Assembly (NCBI GenBank): GCA_033439265.1
Contig: JAVTVX010000004.1
Coordinates: forward strand, 13,095,701-13,159,700
Direction of reading: 5' to 3'
DNA from: Dillenia suffruticosa
Lineage: Eukaryota > Streptophyta > Magnoliopsida > Dilleniales > Dilleniaceae
DNA length: 64,000 nucleotides
The notes beneath the pieces were generated by a model. It made no database searches. It was not told the DNA's origin and saw only the letters and a program-made list of their open reading frames with translations. Below are positions 5,037-60,640 of this stretch, in pieces. A program made the position numbers and the translations under genes. Positions within the stretch are counted from its first letter, which is position 1; every line of letters starts with the position of its first letter.

Positions 5037-6626
5037 ATGCCCGGAACACACTTTTCACAATCTTCTCAACAATCTCCTCTTCCTCCATTTTTTGAAATTC
5101 CCGATCATATAGATATTGAAACTTTTTTGGAAGAAACTGAACCTAGTAACACTGAATCTAACACAACACAAACTAAAAAAAAATGATTTTAATATATGGA
5201 CATTTTTTGAAAGGAAAAATGATGAACAAAAAGCAATTTGTAAAATTTTTCATCAAAAATATAAATTTTCCGGTGCACATATAGCTAGAATAATTTCAAA
5301 TGTTGTTTATGATTATGGAATAAGTGATAGAATTTTTTATATTTCATTTGATAATGTTTCGGCTAATACTATTGCGGTTAATAGTTTAAAAAATTTTTTA
5401 AAAACAATTTTAAATGAAACTTTTTTTCATGTTAGATGTGCATGTCATATAATTAATTTATGTGTTAAGGATGGTTTAGTAATGAGATAACTATTTTTAC
5501 AACCTATTTGTGATTTAATTCATCAAATAAGAAATTCTGCTGTAAAAACTCAAGAAATAAGACAATTATGTATTTTACATAACAAAAATATAAAAAATTT
5601 AAAATGGAATGTGACATTAGGTGGAATTCAACATATGACATGTTACAAGGTGTTCTTCCTTTTCAAAATATTTTAATTGAATTTGTAAATTCAAATTACG
5701 AATATGGTTTTATTGATAATACCGCTTTTGAATTTGCGTCTACACTTACAAAATTATTGAAAATTTTTTATTTATGTACAAATTTATTTTCTGGATATTA
5801 TTATCCAACTACTCATTTAATTCTATCAAATCTTTGTAAAATTATTTATGTATTTAATGAATTTGAAAATGAAGAAAAATTTGGTGAAATTGTTTTTTCA
5901 ATGAAAACAAAATTTTTAAAATATAATGAAGAAATTCCAATTTTATATTTAGTTGTAAGTGCATTAGATCCACATGTTAAGATTGAAGGTACTGAAATGT
6001 TAATAGATTGTTTTGCACAAGTTTTTCCATCAGAAATGTCTATTAACCCATATTTTTTAAAATAACAAATATCTCATACTTTACAATCAATATTTGAATT
6101 ATATGAAAAGGAAATTAATAATTTAAATACTAATAATATAGCTAGTAGTAGTAGTAATAGTATTCAATCATCTTCATTTTCATTTAATCCCTTACACATG
6201 TTAGGAAAAAAATAAAGAATTTCTTCATCATCATTTAATGAATTACTTTTATATAAACAAACACCTAAATTATAATGTTTTGATGATATAGATTTATATG
6301 ATATATTAGCTTGGTGGAAAAATAATGCATCATATTATCCAATTTTGGCCCAAGTGGCTAAAGATGTACTAATCCCTCCGATATCCACAGTACCATCCGA
6401 AAGTGTTTTTAGTGCAGGTGGTCGAGTGCTAACCGAAAAACGTATAAATTTAGCGGACGACACTTTAGAAACTTTAATATGCATTAAAGATTGGAAGGAT
6501 GCAGAAAAAAGAATGCAAGGAATTATCAAAATCTCGAAAAATGATGAACAAGAAGTAGAAGAAGAAGAAGAAGAAAAAAAAAATAATAATAATATTTTTC
6601 TTTTGTTTAAAAGTCATTTTAAATAG
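5037..6626 (+). pseudogene. hAT (Ac/Tam3-like) transposase, decayed
   Basis: The start at 5037 opens a short acidic leader (MPGTHFSQSS...) that ends at a stop before the next block. The remaining blocks lie in different frames. The block at about 5180-5490 holds NIWTFFERK, remnants of a BED-type region, ISFDNVSANT with the expected catalytic Asp, and the CACHIINLCV motif typical of hAT. The next block (5604-6064) begins with the conserved RWNSTYDML stretch and includes SALDPHVK. The last block (6345-6626) is a good hAT C-terminal dimerisation domain with STVPSESVFSAGGRVL and an acidic, lysine-rich tail. Most of the region between the BED remnant and the DNVSANT motif appears to be missing, so the copy is frame-broken and internally shortened. 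It is unlikely to make active transposase. Confidence 0.85.
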
Positions 6627-11144: not shown

Positions 11145-11720
11145 TCACTACAAAAAAACATGATTTTAGCGACAAAAAATTGTCGCTATTTTGTAACGGA
11201 TTTAGCAATGAAAAAATTTTTCCTCGCTATTTTGCAACAAAATTTGCGATAAAAACCTTTCGTGACTAAATTAGCAACGGATACATTATTCGTATTTAAA
11301 GTTGTCGCTAATTAGCGACGAAAAATTTTTCGTGACTAAATTCGTAGCTAATTGGTGACGAAAAATTTTGCGTTGCAAAATCGCCGCTAACTAGCGATGA
11401 ATAATTATTTCGTAACTATATTTTGCTACGGATATTGTTATCAATCGCTAAATTTAGTGATGAAAAATTTTCGTTGTAAATTTCGTTGACAATTAGCTAC
11501 AAAAAATTTTCGTCTCTAATTAGTTACAAAAAAATATTTGTTATAAAATTTAACAACGAATTTGAAAATTCGTAACTAAATTTATCGCTAATTAGCCACT
11601 AAAAAGAAATTTGTGCTAAAATTAATCGCAAATTAGTTAAAACAACTACTTGTAACTAAATTCGTTACTAATTTAATATTGATATTTCCAAATTCATGAC
11701 TAATTTTGTAACTAAATTTC
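11145..11720 (+). mobile_element. CACTA-like transposon end with subterminal palindromic array
   Basis: It starts CACTACAAAAAAACATG, a typical plant CACTA (En/Spm) terminus. About 570 bp of reiterated short inverted motifs follow (GCGAC...GTCGC, TAGCGACGAAAAATTTT, TTCGTGACTAAATT). These resemble transposase-binding subterminal repeats. No matching right end and no transposase were found, so this is a partial or non-autonomous element. The same motif family recurs at 28.0, 30.2, 33.7, 39.6 and 43.0 kb. Confidence 0.7.
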
Positions 11721-39541: not shown

Positions 39542-39550
39542 CACCAAAAT

Positions 39551-39910
39551 TTGCGACGAATAAATTTTTCGTCGCAAAATTTCCAACGAAAAACAATTTA
39601 TTGCAAAATTTATGACGAAAAGAGTGGCGTCGCAAACTTCGTCACAAATTTTGCGACGAATGTTATTTCGTCGCAAAATTTGTGACGAATATTTTTTCGT
39701 CCCAAATTTTGCAACGAAACAATATTTGTTGCTAATTTTGCAACGAATAATACTTTTGTCGCAAATCACAAACGAAAAATAATTTGTCGCAAATAAGCGA
39801 CGAATGTTTTTTGTTGCAAAATTCGTCGCAACTCAAAATTTACAATACAATGAGCATAGTTTTCAGGGACAAATTTTGTGACGAATATATATTTTGCAAC
39901 GAATATAAAT
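39551..39910. repeat. Left subterminal palindromic array of the CACTA element
   Basis: Ten or more copies of AAATTTGCGACGAA or its complement TTCGTCGCAAAATTT, often back to back. Open frames across it merely translate the repeat. Confidence 0.8.
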
Positions 39911-40188
39911 TTTATTAATATATTTTGACAAATTTGCCTGCTCACCGAACATCATCAACAATTAATCATCCAAATCGTTTTTAATATAAAATTTAAGCAA
40001 TCTATACTCATAATTATAACTATCTATTCAATAAAATCAATGTATTAAAAATTTAACAAGAAATCACAATTATAATATCAAATAAAAAAGCAACATCAAA
40101 ACTAAATATTAAAATATCAATAACCATACATAAAAAAAAATAAATGTAACAGTAAAATAACAGTTCACAATTTCAAGTATGACTTCCA

Positions 40189-40221
40189 CCATCACCATCA
40201 TCATCATCATCATCATCATCA
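40189..40221. repeat. CAT/ATC trinucleotide microsatellite
   Basis: Run of CAT triplets (ATG on the minus strand) just downstream of the PTTA transposase relic. Confidence 0.8.
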
Positions 40222-40324
40222 AAGAAATCATCACCCTCATCACCATCACAAGCATTATCAGGAAGAGAAATAGAAGGGGAATCTGATTCGGAGTAGAGAC
40301 TAACTGAAAATACTCCATGATTAA

Positions 40325-40716
40325 CATTTGCTACGTGCGGATCTCGTGCAATTCTTGCGTGTGCTTTGCTTGAAATTCACTGAATGCCTGATCTCTTTGC
40401 AGTAGCAAGTCCTTCAAATGGCTCACCTCTTTATTCAATTGATTTATTTGTGCTCTAACTGCTGGTAGGGTGGAAGAAGATGAACCGGCGATTTTGTATG
40501 TTCTGCTCAAAGATCTAGCGCAACTACTCTACCCCCTTTTTGTCCACCAGTCACCTCGAGCCATGTATTCATGTTATCAACAGATGACTCAGATCCGCCA
40601 GCATCATCACTAGCACTCGAACTTCTATATGCTACCTTATCATATTTCTCCTACATTGTCATGAGAAAAATTAAAATAAATTTACAATAATATTATAATA
40701 CAAACACATAATCTTG

Positions 40717-40754
<38 letters not shown>

Positions 40755-42040
40755 GGAAAATAAAAAATTTTGTAACATAAATTATGAGACCATATACGAT
40801 CTAAATTATGAACATTCATATTAATATTGAATAAGTTGAAATTTTAGGAAAAAAAATAAAAGAGAATCTCTAGCAAGTAATCTATTAGAAATCAAAGAAT
40901 CAAGTTAGCAATAAAAATAAAATTGTGAGAGACTAACATAAAGAATTCATCTTCCTACATTGTTATGATATGTTCAACATAAAATATTCAAATCAATATT
41001 GAAAATGTTCATAAAATAATTGAAAAATTTGAAATTACAAACCTTAATTGCTCTAACTCTCTCCCCGCTCCAAGTCTTATCTTTTTTCTAAAATATGCGC
41101 GTGAAAGCATCTATGAATGAAGACTCGGTCCCCATTTCCTTGGTTTAAAATAAAAAACACTATTAGAAATAATGAAATAATTTAAATTAGATAAAAAAAA
41201 TTAGTGTTTGTATAAAATTACCAATCTATTTTTATATTCACCGATATTGATCGAGCCTCCCGCATACGTCGAAGACGATTCTCCTGAATTATAAACTCGA
41301 TTTTTTTTATTCTGCTCACTCCTTCGTTTGCTCTCCTCCGATTCCCAAAAATTCAGAATCCTGCCCTAATTTTGCTTGGTGATGCAGTTGGACTTTTTTA
41401 CATGTCTCTTTGCATGATTTAGAACGTGTCGAATGTGATCGCCACATTTTTTCTTAAAAATTCTTCTTACTTCCAACTCTTCAGTCTCGTCCCAAGTGAA
41501 TACTCGCTGCAATGGAAAGAAACCAATAACTTATAAAGTTATTAACTTAATTTCATATATAAACTGATTGTGATAACTTACCTTGAACTCGTTCCACCAT
41601 AGTTCTTTTGTTTTATCTGGAGTGCTTGTGTAAGACGTCGAAACCCCTTCTCAATGATTATTCACTATTCTATTTAACTCGTGAATAACATGTATAGAAT
41701 TTGTAAATTTATCGTAAAGTTTCAAACAAACAATGTTAAATAAATATGATAGTTAAAAGAAGAAATTATTTTATAAATAAAAGAAATAATACATCTATAA
41801 TTTTAAAATTTAGTACTTACGAATCTCCATAACGGGCTATTAACTCTCGATTGTCTTCTCTATCTCCATACGACTGTTCCACCGAATGGACTGCAGAAGG
41901 TACATTGCTAGCGATGTGTTGAGAATGCGAAGGGCCTGCAACAGAAGGGGGAGGCGAAGATACATTGCCGGCAAGAGAATGTGATTGCGAAGGTGCCGAA
42001 GTGGACTACGATGGTGAAAAGCGTGAATTTCCATCAGAAT
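40325..42040 (-). pseudogene. Plant PTTA/En/Spm-type transposase (Transposase_24 family), decayed
   Basis: Five minus-strand exons can be read. A Ser/Pro-rich segment at about 42030-41828 ends in a GTAAGT donor. A segment ending TKELWWNEFK at 41582 is followed by GTAAGT. A segment at about 41513-41222 has RVFTWDETEELEVRRIFKKK, SNCITKQN and AGGSINIGEYKNRL. A segment at about 41135-41042 has MGTESSFIDAFTRIF and SGERVRAIK. A segment from 40655 leftward has EKYDKVAYRSSS, WLEVTGGQKGGRV and a heptad-like tail (INQLNKEVSHLKDLLL). This is the standard exon and motif order of the CACTA accessory protein. In-frame stops follow KQN, RIF and VALDL, so it is not functional. It lies inside the CACTA element, between its arrays. 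Confidence 0.8.
40719..40751. repeat. TA microsatellite
   Basis: Run of TA dinucleotides in an intron of the PTTA transposase relic. Confidence 0.85.
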
Positions 42041-42959
42041 TTCGTTTATGGATGAAATTTTTTTTTCATCCCAGAATTTGGGACGAATTTTTTTTTTGTC
42101 TCAAAATCAGGGACGAATTTTTTTTTCATCCCTGAATCGGGGACGAAAAATTTTTTTTGTCACTAAAATTTACGACGAAAGAATGATTTCATCGCTAAAT
42201 TTCCGATAAATATATGTTTTCGTAGCAATTTGTAGCAAATTTAACGATAAATAATTTTTTCCTTTACAATTTACAATGATTTTTGCAACAATACTTATGG
42301 TTTCTGATAAATAACTCTTTGAATACACTAAAATAGAAACTAAATCGATAAACTATTAACAATATTTACGTACTATGATATAATTATAAAAAAAATTCAA
42401 TGTATTGATTATTAGTTAACAAGTATTTCTACTTTAACTCTTAATTTAGTTAATTGAATATTTAAACAAATTTATAAAATAGAGTTATCAGTGCTAGAAA
42501 TGAAAAATTAAACAAATAATGAATAGAAAATGAATATACTACTAATATTCTTTTGTAACAATTTAAAAGATTTGTAAAGTTATAGAAAATAAATGTACAA
42601 ATTTAAAACATTATACTATATTATCATTTTTTATATAAATAGATAATGAATGAAAGATTTTATATAAGATTTTTTGAATATTTTAAGATTTTTATAAGCT
42701 CTAAGTGTATAACACCGTTTTCAAATCATTTTTTATATTAGAAAATGTTTATAATACTAGAAAATATTTCTAATTACTGAAAAATTAATTTTAGCGACGA
42801 ATTTTGTCACAAATGTTATATTTGTCACTAATTTGCAACAAATTTAGCAACAAATAATTGAATTTGTTGCGACGAATATAAATATTTGTCGCTAACTTTG
42901 CTACGAATTTAGAAATTCGTCGTAAATTTAGGAACAAATTCATTTTCGTCCCAAATTTA

Positions 42960-43310
42960 GGGACGAATTAAGAAGTTTGTCGCAATATTTTGAGACAAAT
43001 TTTTTTTTTCGTCTCGAATTTAGGGACGAAATTTTCTTTCGTCGCAAATTTAGGGACGAATTTCTCATTCGTCGCAAATGAAGGGACAAATTTTATATTC
43101 GTCGCAAATTTAAGGACGAAGTTTTTATTCGTCGCAAATTTTGGGACGAATTTTTATTTCGTCCCAAATTTAGAGACGAATTTTTAATTCGTTGTAAATT
43201 TTGCGACGAATTTTTAAATTCGTGACAAATTTTGCGACGAATTTTTAAATTCGTTGCAAATTTAGTAACGAAATTTTTATTCGTTTCAAATTTGCAACGA
43301 ATTGTGTTTC
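42960..43310. repeat. 30-bp palindromic tandem array, right side of the CACTA element
   Basis: Roughly ten units of about 30 bp, each built as GGGACGAA, T-rich spacer, TTCGTCGCAAATTT. The period is so regular that the plus strand translates as a 10-residue repeat (NLGTNFSFVA-like) for six units. Each unit is itself an inverted repeat. These are probably accessory-protein binding sites, as described for TnpA and En/Spm subterminal repeats. Confidence 0.8.
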
Positions 43311-43512
43311 AAAAAATTTTCGTCAAAAATTTGCGACGATTTTTGTAACGAAAAGGTTTTTAGTTGCTAAATTTGCGAGGAAAATATTTTTGTTGCTAAA
43401 ATTATGGTTAATTGGTGACGATAACATTTTTTGTTGTTAAATTTGTTTCAAATTTGCGACGAATATTTCTCGTTGCTAAAATTCACCGCTAAATTCTTCT
43501 TTTTTTGTAGTG

Positions 43513-44105
43513 AAAAAACAATATTTCTTGTGATTCAAAGATATTTACATGTAATTTTGTTTCTTTAATTGCTAGATTTCTTGATGTGCTTACTTCTGGC
43601 ATTCAATAGATGTATTAAATATAGGTTTAGCTTAAAATAGTATATGAACTCATCTTAGTACCCAGATGTAACAAAATTTCAAATTTCAAGCAATTCATTC
43701 TCTCAAAACGAAAAATAGTTCTTAACTCCTACCCTTTCCTCTCTCTGCTTTTATGAGTTTGAATGTTTTGTTTTGTCTTTTGTTTTTTTGTATTTTGTTT
43801 TGTTTTGTTTTTGGTTTTTTTTTTTTTTTTTGGAATTAATAAGTTCAAATGTCAGCAAGATTTTAAAAATTTAGTCCAGAATTTTTGAATACATCACCCA
43901 ACATAGTTCACGCTAATTAAAAACGTAAGAGAATGAATATTGCCCTTTGCACTACTCCGATATGGAAACAGCAGCCCCGACTCCCAACCGAAAGGAAATG
44001 AAATATCTGAAAATGTTAACTCTTCTGAGCATTGGTTGAAAAATTTATAGTAATAATAAATAACCAAGAAAAATACAAAATTTTATTGATTTGTCTTCAA
44101 TACAA
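43513..44105. other. Intergenic DNA, nothing recognised
   Basis: AT-rich sequence with a T/G-rich TTTTGTTTTG tract near 43770-43830. No coding, RNA or transposon feature could be supported. Confidence 0.45.
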
Positions 44106-44600
44106 GTAACACCTAAAATCTTGCACTATAACTGAAGGCAAGGGAAGCAATTTGATGGTATGTAAAACTGCAAACAAGTAGGAGAATCCGAAGAACCAGT
44201 TCTATCGCAAATAGCACACAAAATATGTCCATTTTTAAATCCATTTCCCAGCATCCTGACATCAAAGCTGACCTTCAAGCTGCTTTGAGATGAAGGATCC
44301 GATCGCATGTTCCTTCCTGGCACCCAAGTGACATAAATTTCTCTTCAGTAAACACGTAAACATCAACTCGTTGAAAATCAATTGATGGAGAATGACAACT
44401 TGTAGTTGGAGTCCTTGAATAGTTTTAAGCTATGGAGGAGATTTAGTAGCAAGCAACAGAATGTGCAACCGAATATGCAATCCTTGCTTGCCTTAATTGA
44501 AGGGGCATGAGGCAGTGCAGTATAAGGTAGACCCTTGATGAGGCCAACGTGTTCAGTGCAAACTCGGGTGGGTACACTGTCTTTAGTTTGCAACAATAAA
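44106..44600 (-). pseudogene. LEA2/NHL-like relic (copy C)
   Basis: Minus-strand fragments in different frames resemble the intact NHL gene next door, in the same order. They are a cysteine-rich stretch (ALPHAPSIKASKDCIFGCTF) like the membrane-proximal region, then DFQRVDVYVFTEEKFMSL matching HFDEIEVYVFGEDTLLSI, then SSLKVSFDVRML matching SDWKLSFRMRLTVWG. No single frame is open throughout, so it is a decayed duplicate. The resemblance is short and judged by eye. An unrelated short gene is the alternative. Confidence 0.45.
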
Positions 44601-45609: not shown

Positions 45610-46327
45610 TCACCGGGCTAAACACATGTTAGGCCAAGGGGAACTCAACTTACCCTCAGCTTTTGCAACCAAAAACTCAACATCCAAGTCCTCGCAAAAA
45701 GCATCAAACTTGAAATGGTCTTTCATCATTGTACCAGGCCCATATGTACCCCAAACAGTCAATCTCATTCTGAAACTCAGTTTCCAATCACTTGTTTGAC
45801 CCAAATCACTCATAACAGATTTTATTTCAAATGTTCTCTCCGTCTCTGCACCCAAGTAAAATGAGTCCACTGCAACTATAGAAAGCAACGTGTCTTCCCC
45901 AAAAACATATACTTCAATCTCGTCAAAATGGATTTGCAATTTGTTTTGGTTGTTGACTTTTATTTTGGCAATCCAAGTGTAAGAGCTTGAGTTGTGTGCG
46001 CCGGGAGTTATGGAAATTGAATCAACCACCAATTCTGGAGGACCGGAGGATCCGTAGAACATAAATATTGCGGGAAGGACGATAACTATTAGGACTACAA
46101 AGAGGCAGCAAGAACAGCAACTGCCATAGGTAATTGCATCATCTCTGGACCAAGAACAATATCTTCTAGTTGTAGACCTAGTTATGCCCCCCATGGTTGT
46201 GTTTGTTGTATCCGTTGGAAGTCGAATGTATGAGTGGCGCTGGCGGGGTATAGGCTCTTCCGTGGAGTCATCCATCTCAAAAGCATCGTTGTTAGCCATT
46301 TCGAGTTGATGTTGGGATGATGAATCC

Positions 46328-46329
<2 letters not shown>
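45610..46329 (-). CDS. LEA2/NHL family (NDR1/HIN1-like) membrane protein
   Basis: An intact single-exon frame of 239 codons. Order: acidic then basic cytosolic N-terminus (1-68), cysteine cluster GSCCSCC (69-75), one hydrophobic membrane span (about 76-92, LFVVLIVIVLPAIFMFY), and an extracellular or apoplastic LEA2 beta-sandwich region (about 98-215). That region includes the family-typical NNQNKLQIHF and IEVYVFGEDTLL segments. Size and architecture match plant NHL proteins, which are plasma-membrane proteins tied to pathogen and stress responses. The start at 46329 sits two bases from a GA microsatellite. The ATG at residue 11 (46299, MANNDAFE) aligns with the start of copy B and is a credible alternative. 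The frame extends 32 codons further upstream through the microsatellite, as Ser-Leu repeats that are unlikely to be real protein. Flanked on both sides by relics of the same family. Confidence 0.85.

Positions 46330-46330
<1 letters not shown>

Positions 46331-46392
<62 letters not shown>
46331..46392. repeat. GA microsatellite in the NHL 5' leader
   Basis: About 31 uninterrupted GA/CT dinucleotides, ending one base from the NHL start codon on the minus strand (CT-rich leader). CT-rich leaders are common in plant promoters, but this length directly against an ATG is unusual. Confidence 0.9.
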
Positions 46393-46398
<6 letters not shown>

Positions 46399-46834: not shown

Positions 46835-46995
46835 TGTTTGGAGGCTCAGGGAAGTCAACTTACCGTCGTCCTTGTAGAAAACGTCAAACTTTCCAATAGT
46901 TGTCCAAAGAGCCACTCTCTTCCTAAAACTTGTTTCCCAAATCTCTACATTGACCTCCACTTTGAACACCATCTACATTGATGTTTTCCATATAA
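46835..46995 (-). pseudogene. NHL/LEA2 copy B, 3' piece
   Basis: Minus-strand reading VFKVEVNVEIWETSFRKR, VALWTTIGKFDVF and DGKLTSLSL aligns with the C-terminal third of the neighbouring intact gene (SFRMRLTVWGTYG ... KFDAF ... EGKLSSPW). It is followed rightward by an old copia LTR at about 47030. The matching 5' piece lies 12 kb away at 59147-59392 on the same strand. Confidence 0.7.
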
Positions 46996-49071
46996 CTCAT
47001 CACAAATTGCGCTTCTAATGTTCATGGAAATTATGATAAAGAAAATATTTATACAAATTATGATATGTATAAAAAAAAGAAATCTCCAAAGTTAATAAAA
47101 TATTATCTCAAATATTTGATATGCCCACATATTGTAATAGAATGTTGACACGTTATGATATTTGGAGTTATACAACTCGATATATATAGAAAAATACTAG
47201 TAATAGAAAGAAATGTCTCATCTAATGATATCATATGGTCTCATGCGTATTCTTGAATAATATTTACAACATATAAGCTACCGTATGGAAGTTAACATAT
47301 ATGTTAATATCCCCCTCTAGCTGAAAGTGATTAGAAGTCTCTTATCTTGAGTTTGCCGAGTAAATCTTGAAACTGCCAAGTTAAGTATGATTTAGTGAAA
47401 ATATTGCAATTTGAAATCGGGAGGAGATATCAATAGCCGAATAGTGCCATGTATGATAGGATGTCACAAAAAGTGACAGACAATCTCAATATGTTTGGTG
47501 TGCTCATGGAATACATCATTATATGCAATTTGCATGATACTTTGATTATCATAGTGAAGTGGAATAGCCGAGAAGGAAGTGCCACCCATGTCTTTGAGGA
47601 GCCATCATAAACCAAAGGAGATCAGAAGTGGTATCAATAAGAGTTTGGAATTCTACTTTTGTATTGGAGCAAGAGATATTAATTATTTCTTGTTATGCCA
47701 AGAGATAAGGGATGTACCAAGAAAGAAATAATATTCGGTAGTGGAGCAATGATTAGTTAGGCCTTTGGCCAAGCCAACATCAGAATAAAACCGAAGTTCT
47801 AGTGGAGATGAGTTAGAGAAATGAAAACCATGAAATAGAGTACCTCGAATGTAGCAAAGGATAAGAAGAACGGCCAAAAAGTGAGTAGCCTGTGGTGTAC
47901 TCATGTCTCATGAACTAGCTTACAATATGAATAGTGTGGGCAATGTCGAGACATGATATAGTGAGATAAATAAGACATGTAACTAGTTGATGACAGAGAA
48001 TGGTATCAATGAGAAGAGTCTCATCAGTGGCTAAGAGATGAGCATTGGTTTTAAGAGGGGTGCTGATCGTTTTAGTATCTGTGATCTCCGCAAAGAAGAT
48101 AAGATCGGTAACATATTTGGTTTAGGATAAAAAATATCCAGACTTAGTGATATAACCTCAAGGCCCAAAAAATAAATGAGAGTATCTAGATCTTTCGTTT
48201 TAAAGTGCTGATAGAGAAATGATTTAAGAGTAGAGATATCATTAGTGTCATCACCAATGGTGATCATGTCATTGACATAGAGAAGAAAAAAAGTAGTCCA
48301 TTGATTTATTTTTTGAACAAAAAGGACATGATCATAATTGGAATAAAACCCAAGGTGGCCAATTGTGATGCTAAATTTAAAAAACCATAACCCAAGTGTC
48401 TATTTAAGACCGTATAAGCTTTTGCAAAGATGACTAATCTTATTTGGTAGATGATCATAACCTCTTGGGGGTTGTATATATACTTTTCAGTGAGATCATT
48501 ATTGAGAAAGGCAATCTTGATATTTATTTGAAATAACAACCAAAATTTACTAGCAACAACAACAATAAGATGCGGACTAAGGTTAAATAAGGTATAGGGA
48601 CAAATGACATTTCGTAATCAATGTTGTACTCCTGTGTGAATCATTTTGTTACAAGTCGGGTCTCGTATCAAACAACAAACTCATCTTCTCAAGTCTTTAT
48701 TTTATAGACCCATTTGCTCCCAACAATATACTTTCATGGAGGGAATGTCTGAAGTATTTGTGCGAGCAAGAGCCTATAGTTGTTTTGTCTTTGCTTGCTA
48801 CCATAGAGGGTTAGTACTGACCTTACGATGGGTGCGAGGTTCATATAGTAAAAGTAAGTTAGTTTAGGAGCACAATTATATAATCATATTCATGAGATTA
48901 TAAGAGTACAAGACATGTGCTACCAAAAACTTTAAGAATATTGTAGTTATGAATACAATTATATAATCATTCATAAGGAATTATATTACCATTGATTGGA
49001 GCAGTAATACAGTTGATAATACAGTAAGAGTTTTTTCTCTCCAAAACATTTCTGGACATAAGGAAGATATG

Positions 49072-49076
49072 AGAAG
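49072..49076. repeat. Target site duplication AGAAG, left of the gypsy element
   Basis: The five bases before TGTCATGCC are AGAAG. The same five follow GGCATGACA at 56754-56758. Confidence 0.8.
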
Positions 49077-51750
49077 TGTCATGCCCCGACTCTCGAATCG
49101 AGCACGTGACAACCGTCGCATCACCCTGACAAACAGGTAAACCCAACTCGTACACCGAGATAACACAAGACATTCATCAATATGCATCTTGTCTTCTAAA
49201 CAATACAACAACATGCAAAGTATCCACTTGATCCATCTCTATTTCAAAAGACATGTATAAGGTTGATTAGACCATTTCTAAATCTAATAAATTTTCATAA
49301 TTTCGAAAAAAAATCCAACAACGTAAAATATAAAAAATTTAAGTAGAATTTAAGGTTTTTAAAAAAATCCAAATGGGGGGTATAGTTTTAATTATAATTC
49401 AAAAAAATACTCTCCATAATTCATCCAAGGCAAGAACTGGTACCAATAGTAGGAATCTCCTCAAAAACTAACTTGAGCTCGGTAAGATGTAACACTAGGA
49501 TTGACTAGATCTCCTAACTTAAAATTCTTCTAAAAAATGAAAGAAAGAAGGGTGATTACAAAAATTTTTAGTGAGTGGAGTGCAATGACATAATTGTGAC
49601 AATAAATGAGAAACAAGTATATAGATGTCAAATCATGAATTCAAATAGTTTATCAAATAATATAATTCCAATGATCATAGAATTAAAAAAAAAGAATGAA
49701 TGCATCCAAAATTTCCATATTTTCTAAAGATTAATGGGTCTCCTTAAATAAACCACTTCCACCCAAAATTTGGCTTAATCCGAGTGGAAGCTCAAAAAGA
49801 GATTTTCAATTCATTGGATTCACAACATTATATCTCCATTTCTTGATATTGACTCATAACTCACCAATGATACAACTGGATAGTATGATGGGGGTGCATG
49901 AGGTCGCGTCTACTATCCTTTGTCAATAATCCCTAACCACGGTATCCTGTCGGGTCGTTTTATGGAGGGAATGACTATAACTATTTACATCACATATATT
50001 ATCTTTTCACAACTATTCAAATGTCATTCAATCTGCCATAATTTCAACAAATGGTTATCAAATCATATTACAATATTTAAGAATAAATTCTTTAATAACA
50101 TATGATACATATTTATTCGTAAATAAAATGAATGCATACATATTTCAAATTTTCGTTTTGAGATATTTCACAATCACAAATATTTGTACAAAATCATTTA
50201 AAATCATTTAAAATCATTTAAAACAATTTATAAATGAATTTTGAAATGATTTTATTTATTAGAGTCACAACGGTCCGTCCACTCACCTTTTGGGAGAGTG
50301 ATCACTCCCAAAATTTTCAATCAAATGAGAATTATCTCTCATTTAACTCTTCCAATACCTTAATCTAATTTATTGGTTATAATTTAATCATTAAATCACA
50401 TATTAACACAAGAACAATCGATTTCTCTTTAATATTTTCATAATTTTAGTTTTTCAATTCAACACAATTAGAAGATAGTATGGCCACTTCAAGTCATTGC
50501 CTTAGACGTTTTACAATAATAGACAACTAATTTTTTCAATTTATTTTGAAATTAGATTGTGTAGCAATTTCAGGGATTAATTATCCAATATGTAAGTTAA
50601 CCATTTTCTAACTTATTTACACTTCCTAATATATAAAATAAGTCGCATTAAGCTTGAAACATGGTTCAGATGACACAATAAGCTATTGCACATAATTTGT
50701 CCAGACTTGGCCACTAACCCTTGGTCATAATAACATATTCCTATTTTCAGCATGTTGAAAATGAGATTTTAGCACCACTTGATCATCATACATAAATATA
50801 GTCAAGCGTAGGATAATGGATTCTAAACACAAGATATTAAACATATCGCATTTTCAATAAAAAACATTGCCAGCTACTAAAACATACCCATTCATCCATT
50901 GTACAAATCTCAATATTTTATAAACTCTAAATCCGAATTATCACAATTGGGATAATAAGATGCACAATTTCCACAACAAAATTAACAAAATATCAAACCT
51001 AGAAATTGTAGAGAAAATAAAATTTCAAACCCTAATTTACAAGTCGGAATCCCCAATTTATAGGTATCAGCAAGTGAGAAAACAACTCACCCTCAGTCTC
51101 TCTAGAAAACATTAGATTCTACAGATCAATATAGTAAATCAACAATCTATATCAGAGCCCCTAACTTTCATAGTAGAGAGATAAAGAGAGAAATAGAGAG
51201 AGCTAACATCGGAAGCATTGCTGATAAGTTCTCAAAGAATGATCTCCTTGTTGCTATAGGAAGCATTGATGATCAAACTCAAAAGCTGGTTAATCTCAAC
51301 CTGGAAGCGAACGTCTTCATCTCTGCTATTGACTCGGAAAGAGAACGAATAAAGAGAGGGAGAGAGGGCTTTTTCTTGTGCGACAGTCACAAGACGACTA
51401 ATTTCCCTTTTTTTGGTTATGTTGTTGTGAAGCTCTTTCTCAATCAAAGCATCATCATCGGTGTGAAAATTGGAAAGAAGCCAGAATTTGGGTCGTCCAT
51501 GAGAGAGGGAGAGATGGGGTTGTGTTTTGAGATGCTATGGGTTGTTGTTGGATTTACAGACAAAGGGACCCAACCAAGAAAAAAGACAACAAAAAAGTGA
51601 AAAGGGGACGGAGAGAGAGAGGGAGAGAGAGAGACAAAAGAAGATAGGGGTGGGTTTCAAGTGAGTAAAAAGGGAAAGTAGGGCCTTCTCCTATTGTCAG
51701 AGTAGCTCTTTTGTCAATTTTGAACTGTTTTCATTCTTTATCCGATCATT
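49077..51750 (-). mobile_element. 3' LTR-type region of the nested gypsy element
   Basis: It starts TGTCATGCCCCGACTCTCG. The stretch near 50275-50320 (CCACTCACCTTTTGGGAGAG) corresponds in position and sequence to landmarks in the LTRs at 3952 and 27950-32943. Short open frames at 51232-51600 are not supported as genes. The right limit is only an estimate, since no clean terminus was found before integrase begins. Confidence 0.55.
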
Positions 51751-54700
51751 CTTACTTTTTCCTTGGTGGCTTCAATCAACTCTACGCTTTCAATTTTTCT
51801 CTCACCAAGCTCATCCCAACATAACGGAATCTAGCATTTCCTTCTGTAAAGGGTCTCATAGGGTGACATCTCAATATTAGCTTGGTAGTCATTGTTCTAT
51901 GCAAATTTAATCAATGAGAGATGTCGATCCCAACTATCTTGAAAGTTCATAACACATGCTCTAAGCATGTATTCTAAGGTTTGAATAGTGTGCTTGGACT
52001 GTCCATCTATCTGGGGATGAAAGGCTATACTAAGTTTTAACTTAGTCCCCAAAGCAGCTTGCAACTTGGGCCAAAATTGAGAAGTGAACTGAGGGTCATA
52101 GTCCGATACAATAGATATCGTAATACCGTGAAATTTCACAATCTCATTGATATACAACTTGTCCATCCTCTCCAAGGGATAAGAGTTCTAAAATTGGCAA
52201 AAAATAAGCCAATTTGGTGAGATGGTTCACAATCACCCAAATGGCATCACGATGGCTCGGAGTGTGTGGCAAACCGACTATGAAATCTGTAGTAATGTGT
52301 TCTCATTTTTATTCAGGAATTTGGAGCGGTTGGAGAACACCAGCCGACCTTCGGTGCTTAGCTTTAACTTGTTGGTACACTAAACATCTAGCCACAAACT
52401 AGACAATCTCTTTCTTTAATTCGGACCACAAATATGACTCTTTGATGGTTTGGTATATCTTGGTACTTCCCGAATGCATAGCATAGGCCGAGAAATGTGC
52501 TTCTTCAAGTATGGTCTTCCGGAGATCCTTATCATTCGGGATACAAATGCATCTCTTATAATTTACAATCCAATCCTCCCGAATTTGGAATTCATCGCCT
52601 TCCCTCTTGTGGATCTTCTCAACTATACCCTTCAACTCCTCGTTGATTGCTTAAACCTCTCGAATACGATCCACCAAAGTAGGCCTCACCATAAACTTGG
52701 CCAAGAGGGTACCATGATCATCCTTAGTCAATTTGACTCCAAGTACTCGGAGTTTAACTATATAAGAAAAGTAAGAGTTTTCTTGAGATTCCATACTAGA
52801 AGAAGAGGACTTCCGGCTCAAGGCGTCGGCAACCACATTAGTTTTCCCGAGATGGTAGTCTATCACTAATCATAATTCTTGATTAACTTTAGCCATCTTC
52901 GTTGTCTCAAATTGAGTTCTTTCTGTGTAAGAAAATATTTCAAACTTTTGTAATCGGTAAAGATTTTGCATGTGACCCCATATAGGTAATGCCACCAAAA
53001 CTTTAAGGCAAAGACAATGGCAGCTAATTTTAAGTTTTGAGTAGAATAGTTCATTCCATACTTCTTTAGCTAGCAAGAGATATAAACAATCACCCTATCA
53101 CCTTGCATTAACACGTACCCTAATCATTGCTTGCTGATGTTACTATATATGACAAAATCACCGTTGCCACTAGTAGGAAGAGCAAGGATAGGAGCAAATA
53201 TCAACATTTGCTTAAGCTCTTGGAAACTATCATCATACTTTTCATTCTATTCAAATTTCACTCCCTTCTGAGTCAAATTAGACATTGGAGTCACTATTTT
53301 CGTGAATCCCTCTACAAATTTCCCGTAGTAACCTACTAACCCAAGAAAACTTCTCGCCTTAGTGACGTTCTTGGATTGCTCCCACTTTGGAATGACCTCT
53401 ACCTTCTTTGAGTTTACAAAAATTTCATCCCCGGTAACCGCATGCCCTAAAAAACTAATCTCCTTTAGACAAAACTCACATTTAGAGAATTTGACATACA
53501 ACTTTTCTCTATCAGAGTTTGTAATACAATTTGGAAAATCGAAATGTTCTTCATCACTCTTGGAATCCACCAAGATGTTGATGATGAAAAATATGACAAA
53601 CTTGTCAAGGTAAACATGAAACACTTGGTTCATGAGATTCATGAAAGTTATAGGAGCATTCATCAATTCGAAGGGTATCACCAAAAACTCATAGTACCCA
53701 TACCGCGTCCTAAATGAAGTTTTGTAGATATCATCACCCTAAATCCTCAATTAGTGGTAATCAGATCTCAAATCTATCTTTCAAAACATACTAGCCGCTT
53801 GAAGTTGATCGAAAAGATCATCATTTCTCGGGAGAGGATACTTGTTCTTGATCATTGCCTTATTAAGCTACTGATAGTTGATGCATAACCGGAGAGTTCC
53901 GCTCTGTTTCTTCATAAAGAGAATTAGAACACCCAAGATGAGATACATGGTCGAATGAACCCCTTGTCTAAAAACTCTTGGAGTTAAATCTTCAGCTCCT
54001 TCAACTCCATGGGTGCCACTCGATATGGAGGGATTGAAATTGATGTGGTGCAGGAAACCAAATCTATGACAAAGTTGAACTCCAGGACTGGTGGCAATCC
54101 CGAAAACTCTTCAGGAAAAAAATAAAAAATTCATTCATTATGGAAATATCATTCAAATTAGAACTCTCTACCATGGTGTTAATAATATGGGTTAAGCAAA
54201 TCTCGTACCATTTGTGTACTGGTCTCTGTGTTTCAAGGGCCAAAATCACACAGCTCTGTAACACCCGACGCTTGCTAGCAAAGACAAGTGTTGGACACCC
54301 CGGTTTCCAGAATTCTACTTCCACCGTGAAGCAATTCACTGATACCCGATGAAAATGTAGCCAATTCATACCCAGGATGGTATCAAAATCGCTCATTTCT
54401 AATAAAATCAAATATGTTTCAAGAGTTATCTCACCGACCTTTATCTCACAATTCTTATATATGGTTTCTCTAATCAGTTGTTCCCCTAAAGGAGTGATAA
54501 CCAACAACTCTTCCACAAGTAGAGTTAGAGGCCTATCAGAATACCTAGCAAAACTTGTGTTCACAAATAAAATATTAGATCCAGTATCTATTATCTCACG
54601 AGTATCAATATCAAAGATTTTTGTTATACCTATTAATATAGACTATAAAACAATTATTAGTTGATATATAAATTATATGATTTATATGTGACTCTCCATA

Positions 54701-56622
54701 ATAATTCATTACACTACACAATCATGAATGTTTCATATATTTACCTACCCTGAGAATCCAAACTATTAATATAGCCATAACATCTACTATCCATGCACAA
54801 CTAATACTCTTAAAACTGACAGTTCTGGACCCAAAGATCATGATTCAAATTTACAATCCAACATATTGAGTCGAGAAAATCCCTACATCCAATCTTATGC
54901 TTATACTAATGACCATACAAAAATCATATCATCAATATATTTCAAATCATAATTACCTATCACCTATCACCTACATCACATTTCTAAATTATCTAATTCA
55001 AGTTTCAAAGGGTTTTATCTGTGACCACGTCTAGATTGGCTTGAGGCTCTTTATTTGTCATGGTATAAATTATCGCATGAGCCATTGGTTGGGGATATTG
55101 AGTAGGCTTGGCTACAGTGTTGCTTTCCGTCCCTATTCTCAGAGTTGTACTTGTGTGAGATGTTGAAATAGTACTTGAGTAACCTTTGGAGCCATTAGAA
55201 GGACTCCGAACTTATTGACTCCCTTATCTTTCCAAATTCAATTTGGGACAAGAGTATTGAAAGTGACCCTCCTTTCTACAATGATAACATATTCTAGGTC
55301 CCTTACACAGATCCAAATAATATCCCTTACAATTTGAGCAAAGATTTCCTTTACTTCCTCTTGATCTTTCTCCTGATTCAATACTAACGCTAAGAGCATT
55401 TAGTTTTATGAACAATTAGTTTTGAGGAGTGCTAATCAATATCGAGAAAGAACCACCACTATAAAAGCCAGTGCCCTTACTCTTCTTGGAGCTTTGGCCT
55501 AATATGAATCTGTCGGACTCATCTTCTTCCCATGATACTCCCTAACCTTGCCTTTTTCAAGTATCATTTGCTCGGCCCTCAAGGCCAACCGTAGCACATT
55601 TTGATATGTGTGATCCTCCGAAACCGATATTCTCTCTCGGATATTTAGATGCAAGTCATCCTCAAATTTGAAATACCTATATTTCTCGGAGGCTACTATT
55701 TCCAGAACAAATGAGGCTAAACTTCTAAATTTCGTTTCATATTCTGCCATCGACATACTTCCTTGATGGAGAAGGAGGAACTCTCCTTTTTAAATCCTGA
55801 TCAAGTCGGGTATAAAACTTCTAATAGAATTCTCTAAAGAATTCATTCTAAGTAAGGGGTGTAGCTACTGTTTCTTTCACACCATCCCACCAAGTACTAG
55901 CATCATCATCCTATAATCTCATGGTCATCATAAGATTCATCTCATCATCAATTCTCATGTCTATTACAACTTCTAAGACCCTCTTGATCCATTTTTTGGC
56001 CACCGAAAGATTGTTAGAACTTGAGAATATCTCACACCCAAGTTGTCTAGTTTCCTTCAACAACTTGGATAATTCAATGGGTGGTCGAGTAATCGGTATA
56101 GCCGCCGAAGTAGGAGGTGCTACCGACACCGTAGAAAGGACTGGTGGAACTAATGGATTAGGAGATGAGGGTGGAACTTGGACTTGAGATGGTCTTTGGA
56201 GATGTACTTCATATGGATTCCACTACTTAGTTCATTGCCAAAGAGTATCAAGTGGTGGTGGAGGAATCCCGGTTGGAGGAACCGGACGAGTAGACGCCGA
56301 CGATGGTAGAGCATGCGAGGACAATTCATCGTCGTGCTCCTAAGGAAGAATCACATTTATATTTCTCATTCTTCGACGTGGAGGCATGATAATCTACAAA
56401 AGAAAAACTACGTTTAGTTTACTACTTTAAGAAGATATTAGATACCTATGTCTAGAGGTATGTTATTGTCTTAGAACTCATAGGGGGCTTTTAAAAACCA
56501 TTCGAAAATATTTTGAATATCCAAACTTTTGGAAATTTTTGAAAACCTTTAGAAACGTTTGGAAGAATTTATTTAAATTTTCAAAATATTTAAAATCAAC
56601 TTGATTATGATACCAATAAAAT

Positions 56623-56753
56623 TGTCACGTCTCAATCCTTGGATCGAGCACGTGACAACCGCCGCGTCAACCCAGTATACGAGTAGGGCTTACCCGTTTG
56701 CCGAGGTGACGTGGCGGTTGTCATATACTCTATCCAAGGGTCGAGGCATGACA
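56623..56753. repeat. 131-bp near-palindromic LTR segment
   Basis: It begins TGTCACGTCTCAATCCTTGG and ends with a sequence whose complement is TGTCATGCCTCGACCCTTGG. The arms continue to pair for about 45 bases each (including ACAACCGCC on each arm), around a centre containing GTAGGGCTTACCCG. It lies between the gypsy primer site and the target duplication, in the place of the 5' LTR. Confidence 0.7.
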
Positions 56754-56758
56754 AGAAG
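56754..56758. repeat. Target site duplication AGAAG, right of the gypsy element
   Basis: Identical to 49072-49076. Confidence 0.8.
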
Positions 56759-59146
56759 GGCTTGAACAATGTCTAGAATATATCAATGTTTCCATTCAAC
56801 TCAACCATTTTGTTGATAGTGTCCTTAACAAGATTTTTCGATAAATATACCTTGTTGGGTAAGAAAATGAGTAAATAATTTTTTCTTATATTTCATGGCA
56901 TTATTGGTACGGAATATTTTGATTTAGTAAGAGAACTGAGTCTTAATCATATTTGGAAAACGAGAGTAAATAGAAAATAATTCAGACCTATGACGTATTA
57001 AATAAATTCATGTATAATGAGAAAAATTATCAATAAAGATAACATAATAACATGAACCTCTCATGGTGTCATGAGGGATAGGTCTCCAAATATCATAATA
57101 AATCAATTCAAAATGTGTTGAAGAGATAAAATCATTATTAAGAATGGGTAAAAATATGACCTTTTGAAAGTTGACATGTGACACAATCAAAAGTCTTAGG
57201 CTTGATTTGTCTATAAGAATCACTAGAGATGAGGGAGCTCAATTTGACGTCAGAAGGATCACCAAGATGAGAATACTAGATAGTGGATGAAACAACAGCA
57301 ACATCTGGTTTGGATGGAAGACAAAAGGAAGAGAGTTGGAATAGTTGACCAACCTTACACCCTGTTTTATGGATCTCCCTTGTCTGTGGATCTTGCACAA
57401 TATAACCACAACTCAAAAAAATATAAGTCAAAACTAAGGTAACATAGTTGTACAACACATATGAGATTTAAGAATAGTTTAAAGAAAAGAAAAGTAATCA
57501 ACAAGAATAAGTTACATGTTTTGACAGTATCTATAGTTTGAACACGTATGGTGAAATTATCAGCAGTATGAACCACATGAGAGATAGGACAAGTAGTAGA
57601 AGACTCAACCATAGATGTGTCAGAAGTTGTATGACCATGACATATAAAATCAAAGTACCGTGAAGAAGGGATACTTGGATGGACAAGCCGGGTGAAAGAA
57701 GAGGGAGCATTAGAATCTGATTAAAGTTGTCAAAGAAGTTTTCAAAAATTTGTCAAAGAAAACTTGGAAAATATGCTCTCTTGTAGACACTCATTGGTAG
57801 TAGTAATAGTGCAGCTCTCTTGTGGAACCTCAGTGGTAGCAGTAGTAGTAGAGGTATGCCAAATATGAGAAAACTTAGAGTAGTTATCTTGTCTAGAAGT
57901 CTATTGTTCATGGTGTGAATAGTGACATGGCTTTTGACGAGGTGTTGGTGTTGTGAGATGGAATGTGGATCATGACATGGCAAAAAGTAGGCCAAGAGAT
58001 CCAACGTTGCAACTGACATGGTGATGTGGGCCTAGGTTGTGACATAGCACCTGATGTGGCTTGATGATATGGCTACTGACATGGTAGAGTGGGCCTAGAA
58101 TTCTCACGTGGTAGATGACGTGTCTGTTGATGTACCTGATGACATGGCTACTGACCGGATTGGTGACGACCAATCAGGCGACAACACGTGGCAAAGGTTG
58201 TAGGATTGTGTTGAAGGATTGAAATGGCATTGTTTTGTACTCGTTGACTCAAAACGACATCGTTTGGTTTTTTTTCAACCTCCAGATGGTGACTTTTGCC
58301 AGAACAGACCAATAACTCTTCGATGACGCATGTTGGCTGTCACCGTTGTAATCCCTAGGAGAAAATTTAGTATATACCAATTGACTACCAAATAAACTGA
58401 TGAGTAGCAAAAGATTGGAAAATATGCTCTAATCACAAGCTTTAACATGACGTTAATAACTATTGTTTAGAATTTCGAATAGTGCATGAGGGTATGTGCT
58501 TGGCAGGATAAGGCCTAGATTTGCATAGCCAAAAGCGTTAAGTGTGCCAAACACAATGATGTGCTCGAAGGCAAATCTCACGATGTTGTATCAGTGGTGC
58601 ATGGGTGGGTGGACAATATGTATGGAGGCTATTTTAGCTAGAAACCAAGATAAGTTGCAACATAAAAAATAGGTTCTTGTTTTCTTATATAATCTACTCA
58701 ATATAATTATATTGAGAGAGTTATATTAAGGGAGAAAAAATGAGGGTTTTTGATTTATATAAAATGCTAGAGATATTTTCTCACTGATGTCATATAGAAA
58801 ATAGAGAAACATAATTTGAGAGAGAAACTTCTCAACATTTTATTGTGTAAAATACATTGAATAAAGTGAGATATTTATATAAATTAGGGCATGTGCATAA
58901 AATCAAAATCCTAAACTTAAGTTAATCAAATATTTTCCAAACTATATAATATGTCATCATATTTTGTCAAAAATGTTGACATTTTATAATATTTAGGGTA
59001 ATATAATTTCACATATATAGAAAAATGTTAGTAATTGTAAGAAATATCTCAATAATGGTGTCATATGATATCATGTACATCCTCTGAGAATATTTACAAT
59101 ATATATGTTACCATATGTAAGTTAACATATATATTAACTTGGAAGA

Positions 59147-59392
59147 TGGAGATAGAGGGAAGGATTGAAGACCAGAAAGAATAGAAAAGGGCAGCGAGGG
59201 CAACAAGCACAGGACCCAATTGCTTCGTCACTCAGAATTTTGCAGGAACATAGTCCTCTAGTCGGCGGACGTAGTTGTGCTGGCCATTATTGTTGTTGTG
59301 TCAATTGCAAGTGGAATGTAAGAAGTGTGATTGTGGTGAGCTGGAGGGTTTTCCTCGGGGATGTCAATTTCAAAACTGTTATTGCTAGCCAT
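59147..59392 (-). pseudogene. NHL/LEA2 copy B, 5' piece
   Basis: From an ATG at 59392 the minus strand reads MASNNSFEIDIPEENPP, HNHTSYIPLAIDTTT, closely parallel to MANNDAFEMDDSTEEPIP and RHSYIRLPTDTTN of the intact gene. A frame change then gives LCSCKILSDEAIGSCACC, parallel to YCSWSRDDAITYGSCCSCC at the membrane-proximal cysteine cluster. The copy stops where copia-3 begins at about 59138. It is broken by that insertion, a stop after TTTSAD and a frame shift. Confidence 0.7.
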
Positions 59393-59689
59393 TTAACTTG
59401 GAGTTAGGTTGCAACGAAAATAAGTAGGAACATTCATTGATAAATAGTTTTCTCTCAAATGATTTAAAATTGTTAAAGTTCTGATTTCAAGTTTTGTTCC
59501 TTCTCAATTATTGGGCACGGTATATGACCACTATTGATGAAGAGGGGCAATTTACTCGATTAAAGTGCCAATAAGATTGAGAATGTGGAGAACGTTTTTC
59601 AGGGCTTCACTTCATGACTTAATGCTTATGACGATGAATTCCTCTATGGGAAAATATTAATATTAGAGGTAATGGGAGAAAATGTTCCT
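59393..59689. other. Upstream flank of NHL copy B
   Basis: Probably includes the old promoter of copy B. No motif or gene could be supported. Confidence 0.4.
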
Positions 59690-60640
59690 GCTTGGAAACG
59701 TGGGATTTTGGAGTTGATAGTGATGATTCTACAGATGCGAGGAAAATTAACGGAGTGATATACAAAAGGTTTAGGGAGAGAAGGCAGATATTGTTGATGG
59801 AATTAAAATAATTGATGTTGAGGGGGATTCTATCCCACGCCCAATAGTGCAGATTTTGTAGAAGAAAGAATAGAGGCTCCGCAAGCTTGGAAAGTAACTC
59901 TCATTATCAAATTGTTGGGATGCAAGATTGGCTTCAATGATTTGGAGAGTAGGTTGTTTTCAATATGGGCTAGAAAGGGAATTCTGACAATTATAGACTT
60001 GGGGGATAAGTATTTTCCAGTAAGATTTGAAAATTATGATAATTCTTTAATTGGAAGTCCATGGATGATTTATGATCACAATGTTACTGTCAGGCAACAG
60101 GAGCCAAATTTTGATCCTAGTATTGCCAAAGTAGCTGTTTGGGTTTGTTTTCCAGAGTTACCAATGGTGTGGAACTAAATCTAACTAGATTGGATAATAG
60201 AACCACCACACCCAATTATAACCTGGAACAAGATGATGAGTTTCCATGGCAGGGATACCCAATTTCTAGAGGAGTGGATCATGCCTCTAAACCTGGCTTG
60301 GAGGATATGCACGAAGTTCTGGTTTCTGCTCTTCTATTATTCTATGGATAATCAAATTTGTGTGTGGAATTGTGGAGGATCGAGAGATGATTCCTTTGTT
60401 ATTACCACGAAAAGCATTATGGTGCAGTAGAAGTCTCAAATTTTGGGGTTGCTAGAGACAAGTGTTCCTACTAAGAGAGCTAGTGAAGCCTTCAAAGCTC
60501 TTGGCTTTGATAATTTTAATGTTGTTGAGTGTAGACGCTTTGTATGAGGAATCTAGACAGGACAGATACAAGGCAAGATGTCTATTACTAACTTGAAAAT
60601 TGAATTTCAATTTTGCCAGGTGGATGTCAACGTTTGAAAT
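59690..60640 (+). mobile_element. L1-type LINE fragment (ORF1 DUF4283 and start of ORF2 endonuclease)
   Basis: At 59912-60175 the frame reads LLGCKIGFNDLESRLFSIW, KGILTIIDLGDKYFPVRF, GSPWMIYDHNVTVRQ and VWVCFPELP, a DUF4283 domain typical of plant LINE ORF1. Upstream 59790-59910 has the usual GDSIPRP lead-in. Only about 170 bp later, from an ATG at 60344, comes MDNQICVWNCGGSRDD and LGLLETSVPTKRASEAF, the start of the ORF2 AP-type endonuclease with its WNCGG and catalytic LLET motifs. The ORF1 zinc-knuckle region and the rest of ORF2 (reverse transcriptase) are absent. In-frame stops follow MVQ and RRFV in the endonuclease. It is a truncated, internally shortened copy. Confidence 0.8.

Follow-up and report, generated by a model that had tools for sequence, protein, structure and literature searches.

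The window (the whole stretch of DNA analysed, 64,000 nucleotides from Dillenia suffruticosa) holds one open gene of a tandem array, two widely separated pieces of a second and the remnant of a third, and two nested LTR retrotransposons lie between the pieces of the second. The gene features are the following.

45610..46329, minus strand: copy A, an open reading frame of 239 codons for a predicted LEA2-like, membrane-anchored protein
46850..47024, minus strand: 3' piece of copy B, with residues 177-230 of A at 46955-46850
59140..59394, minus strand: 5' piece of copy B, corresponding to A residues 11-91 and shifted in frame twice relative to A
44007..44544, minus strand: what is left of gene C, the third member of the array, seen as six short matches to its open C35 copy

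Counted from the Met at 46299, the start that the other copies match, copy A has 229 codons. Against the Pfam LEA_2 model (PF03168), copy A scored 24 bits (E 5.5e-5) and just missed the curated cut-off of 25.4 bits. Two further family members reached 17.3 and 18.2 bits, and no LEA_2 match at E up to 1 was obtained for B' of C13 or for C'' and D'' of C35 (one prime marks C13 copies and two primes C35 copies). Three of six members thus match weakly, three do not match, and none carries the domain above the curated cut-off. To the eye, the alignment of the six suggests a short N-terminal part, a hydrophobic Cys-rich segment and then the domain. On these three weak matches the array genes may be called LEA_2-like, not clean LEA_2/NHL members, so the NHL/LEA2 label of the preliminary description is kept in a weaker form, and the defence role named there is putative. 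Searches with copy A found no relative by sequence among solved structures and no match in NCBIfam, a prokaryote library. A GA repeat of 34 units (46330-46397) stands directly before the copy A reading frame; C13 genes A and B are preceded on the same side by runs, read as Ser-Leu runs in translation.

Frame-tolerant alignment to copy A gave a score of 115 for the 5' piece (59392->59142, residues 11-91) and 63 for the 3' piece (46955->46850, residues 177-230). Shuffled controls stayed below both scores. For the 5' piece the maxima were 41 (60 shuffled DNAs) and 44 (60 shuffled copy-A proteins), and for the 3' piece 35 (60 shuffled DNAs) and 42 (120 shuffled proteins). The pieces, 12 kb apart, cover non-overlapping parts of A, in order and both on the minus strand, which bears out the earlier proposal that they are homologous to A and represent different parts of one gene. 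The 3' piece had been placed at 46835-46995; its identity holds, and the host homology on this side to the C13 and C35 blocks is wider, from ~46588 to 47020-47024. In tblastn with copy A as query, the 5' piece was weak (best single stretch 25.8 bits, equalled by 9 of 200 shuffled queries) and the 3' piece was unlisted at E up to 10. Gene B of C13 was a stronger query, matching the 5' piece at 82.7% over 254 bp; as protein stretches, its two parts reached 74% and 71% identity, and the 3' piece 74%. A DUF4283 match (59933-60169, plus strand, E 3e-7) lies beside the 5' piece.

Comparisons were made within the genome of which the window is part (G000; 596 Mb, 37 contigs). A protein search of it returned 11 matches, of which the best outside the window were two further arrays, on C13 (L009) and C35 (L010). 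On C13, gene B is open and uninterrupted (229 codons), gene A has one stop, gene C a frame shift and a stop, and gene D several stops. On C35, the open genes are C, with 303 codons and an unusual C-terminal end, and D, with 220 codons; a stop and frame shifts interrupt gene A, and gene B is degraded to fragments, its 5' half not being found in L010 or L014. In the window, on C4, A is open, B split and C a remnant, and a search for gene D at E up to 1e-3 gave no match. The C remnant came to light only when the open C35 gene was the query; for copy A as query, its bit score was reached by 121 of 200 shuffled queries. Each array gene is therefore open in a single block, namely A on C4, B on C13 and both C and D on C35. 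Other open family members lie on C4 at 4.89 Mb and on C18 at 5.115 Mb. At the level of sequence, these comparisons support the reading that the window carries the remains of a row of LEA2-like genes duplicated in tandem, with gene B as a split duplicate.

Collinearity is not confined to the array. Four stretches of the window match L017 (C35), C4 outside the window matches L014 (C35) over 938 bp, and C13 and C35 match on both sides of the array. No direct C4-C13 match outside the array was found for L015 or L016 against the window, and the lone such match in the stretches compared (L034 against L009; 289 bp, 68.5%) is possibly a repeat. We infer that the blocks on C4, C13 and C35 derive from polyploidy.

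The sequence between the two pieces of gene B consists of an outer copia-type and an inner gypsy-type element.

47030..47309, minus strand: copia 3' LTR, outer tip (~60-75 bp) missing; host DNA adjoins directly
48148..48742, minus strand: copia RVT_2 reverse transcriptase (Pfam), in two frames, 48148-48489 and 48557-48742, above cut-off
49072..49076: gypsy target-site duplication AGAAG, left copy
49077..56753, minus strand: nested Ty3/gypsy-type element, from Pfam domains and the LTR end at 49077
52360-52533, minus strand: gypsy integrase zinc-binding part (Pfam)
53001-53243, minus strand: gypsy RNase H (Pfam)
53439-53912, minus strand: gypsy RVT_1 (Pfam)
54310-54642, minus strand: gypsy protease (Pfam)
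56615: gypsy primer-binding-like site, 9/12 match
56622..56753, minus strand: gypsy 5' LTR remnant, 132 bp, one imperfect palindrome
56754..56758: gypsy target-site duplication AGAAG, right copy
56825..57106, minus strand: copia integrase core, a weak rve match (18.9 bits, below Pfam's 32.6) that ends beside the gypsy insertion
58793..59139, minus strand: copia 5' LTR, complete at ~347 bp, judged by other copies in the genome

The outer element has integrase before reverse transcriptase, an RVT_2-type reverse transcriptase and paired LTRs, and is thus of Ty1/copia type, the rve part being below cut-off. Its LTRs are 80.4% identical over 271 compared columns (K80 0.23). The inner element shows the Ty3/gypsy order of protease, RVT_1, RNase H and integrase, together with LTR ends, a primer-binding-like site and a 5-bp duplication; an integrase core was not found, the zinc-binding part alone being matched. 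The AGAAG flanks agree in 5/5 positions at a fixed boundary (chance 0.002). The gypsy domains are bracketed by the copia RVT_2 and rve matches, with all coding matches on the minus strand. The copia frame beside the gypsy breakpoint presumably corresponds to a copia integrase motif, and since this integrase-like reading runs up to the breakpoint, the gypsy element lies inside the copia element, as had been proposed. The end of the gypsy 3' LTR is that of a long and very common LTR family (1898 candidates for query 49077-50400, 40 scored).

Remains of other mobile DNA were also observed in the window. A ~30-bp unit with the core TTCGTCGCAAATTT is repeated in tandem and inverted arrays at 39545-43514. 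Sequence at 11305-11583, in L010 and in L012 is related to these arrays, which are probably end repeats of a DNA transposon. A hAT-like transposase fragment lies at 5583-6062 on the plus strand (Pfam hAT-like_RNase-H, E 5e-9). A tRNA search found none.

The split of gene B was real, as the preliminary description had it, but the parting was not clean. The pieces leave a gap of ~85 codons in A (92-176), in place of which only ~72 nt of host DNA remain. On the open C13 counterpart, the left piece matches L009 to ~6125-6128 and the right piece begins at L009 6345, so that up to 219 bp are gone. In C35 gene B, a 59-bp deletion (L010:1972-1973) begins at L009 6125, the position at which the left piece of the window ends; this may be damage shared with the window, or coincidence. 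If shared, the window's own loss is ~160 bp, and the remaining bases are too few to tell.

The left LTR is also incomplete. With the right LTR as query, the genome yielded 41 matches, 39 of them outside the window, 40 of 163 candidates having been scored. Nine of the 10 copies tested from these 39 possess the 3' tip as found in the window's right LTR, a result that none of 200 shuffles reached; the copy without it is L025, and two of the tested copies (L019 and L020), 5 kb apart, may belong to one element. The window's left LTR lacks this tip, the score there being reached by 94 of 200 shuffles, and gene sequence takes its place; extension of this LTR beyond 47025 was likewise non-significant (56 of 200 shuffles). 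A single later deletion across the LTR-gene border would account for both the lost tip and the lost core. A 5-bp match, TGGAA, flanks the copia element (47025-47029 and 59140-59144), with a chance probability of 0.025 for 6x3 boundary choices and 0.17 for 17x9. It was considered as the copia target-site duplication and set aside after the LTR family comparison; we judge it to be probably chance because the LTR tip that should adjoin it is missing.

Relative timing was assessed from synonymous and LTR divergence, all times being relative only. The tandem pair was the most diverged (dS 0.72 for A-B', 0.83 for A'-B'). Among copies of A, dS was 0.27 (A-A'), 0.22 (A-A'') and 0.25 (A'-A''); C'-C'' gave 0.19, and B-B' 0.44 over 97 codons. 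LTRs often diverge faster than synonymous sites, and for this reason the copia insertion, with an LTR K of 0.23, is probably younger than the multiplication of the blocks. The copia element is absent from C13, and its left junction is absent from C35; absence on C13 agrees with this dating, and an element confined to the C4 block must have inserted after the blocks separated. The gypsy LTR ends gave a K of 0.42 direct and 0.33 inverted (87-88 sites), larger than the copia value and against the nesting order; these ends are short, transition-rich and undatable, and nesting outweighs them. The proposed order of duplication, copia and gypsy is thus supported by nesting, dS and the copia LTR K, and in full it holds as tandem duplication, block multiplication, copia insertion, and then gypsy insertion and border deletion, the last two in either order. 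What is ordered here is two single insertions, nothing more, and not the two transposon waves suggested earlier.

The scenario that best explains the locus, to which we give a probability of roughly 85%, is that of an array remnant in which a copia-type element would have inserted into copy B at ~59140, after the array had spread onto three chromosome blocks. A gypsy-type element would then have entered the copia integrase gene, and a deletion, later than the copia insertion, would have taken both the left LTR's outer tip and ~160-219 bp of the gene core. That the pieces are chance or unrelated matches might be suspected from the weak tblastn result with A alone, but the shuffle tests speak against it and the C13 counterpart (82.7% over 254 bp) refutes it, leaving this reading with next to no credence. 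Two copia insertions in gene B, followed by recombination that removed the stretch between them and left a hybrid element without target duplication, would explain the missing core and the lack of a convincing target duplication; this is very improbable, as one gene would have had to receive two insertions ~200 bp apart, and the loss of the LTR tip would stay unaccounted for.

A less remote, though still unlikely, alternative is that the core of gene B was lost first and that copia inserted later at the deletion junction, with TGGAA as its duplication. The exact 5-bp match at one boundary pair favours this order, for a true target duplication would mean that the core was gone before the insertion, and the C35 deletion at the end of the window's left piece makes earlier damage possible. 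Such a history, however, requires the insertion point to lie no more than a few bases from the junction and does not account for the missing LTR tip. The dN/dS point estimates, which carry no interval, were ~0.33 for B-B' (97 codons), below 0.53 for A-A' and 0.61 for A-A'', and give no hint of a long-dead gene. We therefore retain the copia insertion into copy B with a later border deletion.

Two further claims about the locus are altered by comparison with the other blocks. The insertion had been taken as the cause of gene loss; C35 lost gene B without this element, and earlier damage is possible, so that the insertion may or may not have killed the gene. Nor has the genome lost this gene copy, given the open gene B on C13. 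One tandem array has been sorted over three blocks, each gene open once, and forms a small example of reciprocal loss. A stricter version, in which each array gene was kept as exactly one working copy and transposon hits and point mutations were the means by which the surplus was lost, seems to us doubtful.

The pattern is like the fractionation and reciprocal gene loss described after polyploidy, where different members survive on different duplicated blocks (PMC9157103, among others); here it concerns one four-gene tandem array on three blocks of one genome. Tandem and proximal duplicates are reported to be in excess among plant pseudogenes (PMC7935947), and splitting by nested elements, as present here, is not treated in the part of that survey on which we draw. 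The closest likeness is to maize p1/p2, where nested LTR retrotransposons (nine elements, 68 kb between the parts) separate a tandem copy, the order follows from nesting and one LTR is shortened at its end (PMC2686159). A 5-bp target duplication was found in the maize case (PMC2686159), whereas the outer element here has no convincing one, and this locus has two elements over 12 kb and a lost gene core. A gene split by nested elements is thus of a known kind and counts as ordinary decay in a plant genome. The locus serves as a worked case of how an intact counterpart elsewhere reveals the extra cost of a split, in gene core and LTR tip, and how that counterpart, together with comparison across the LTR family, reveals a neat 5-bp target duplication as probably chance.
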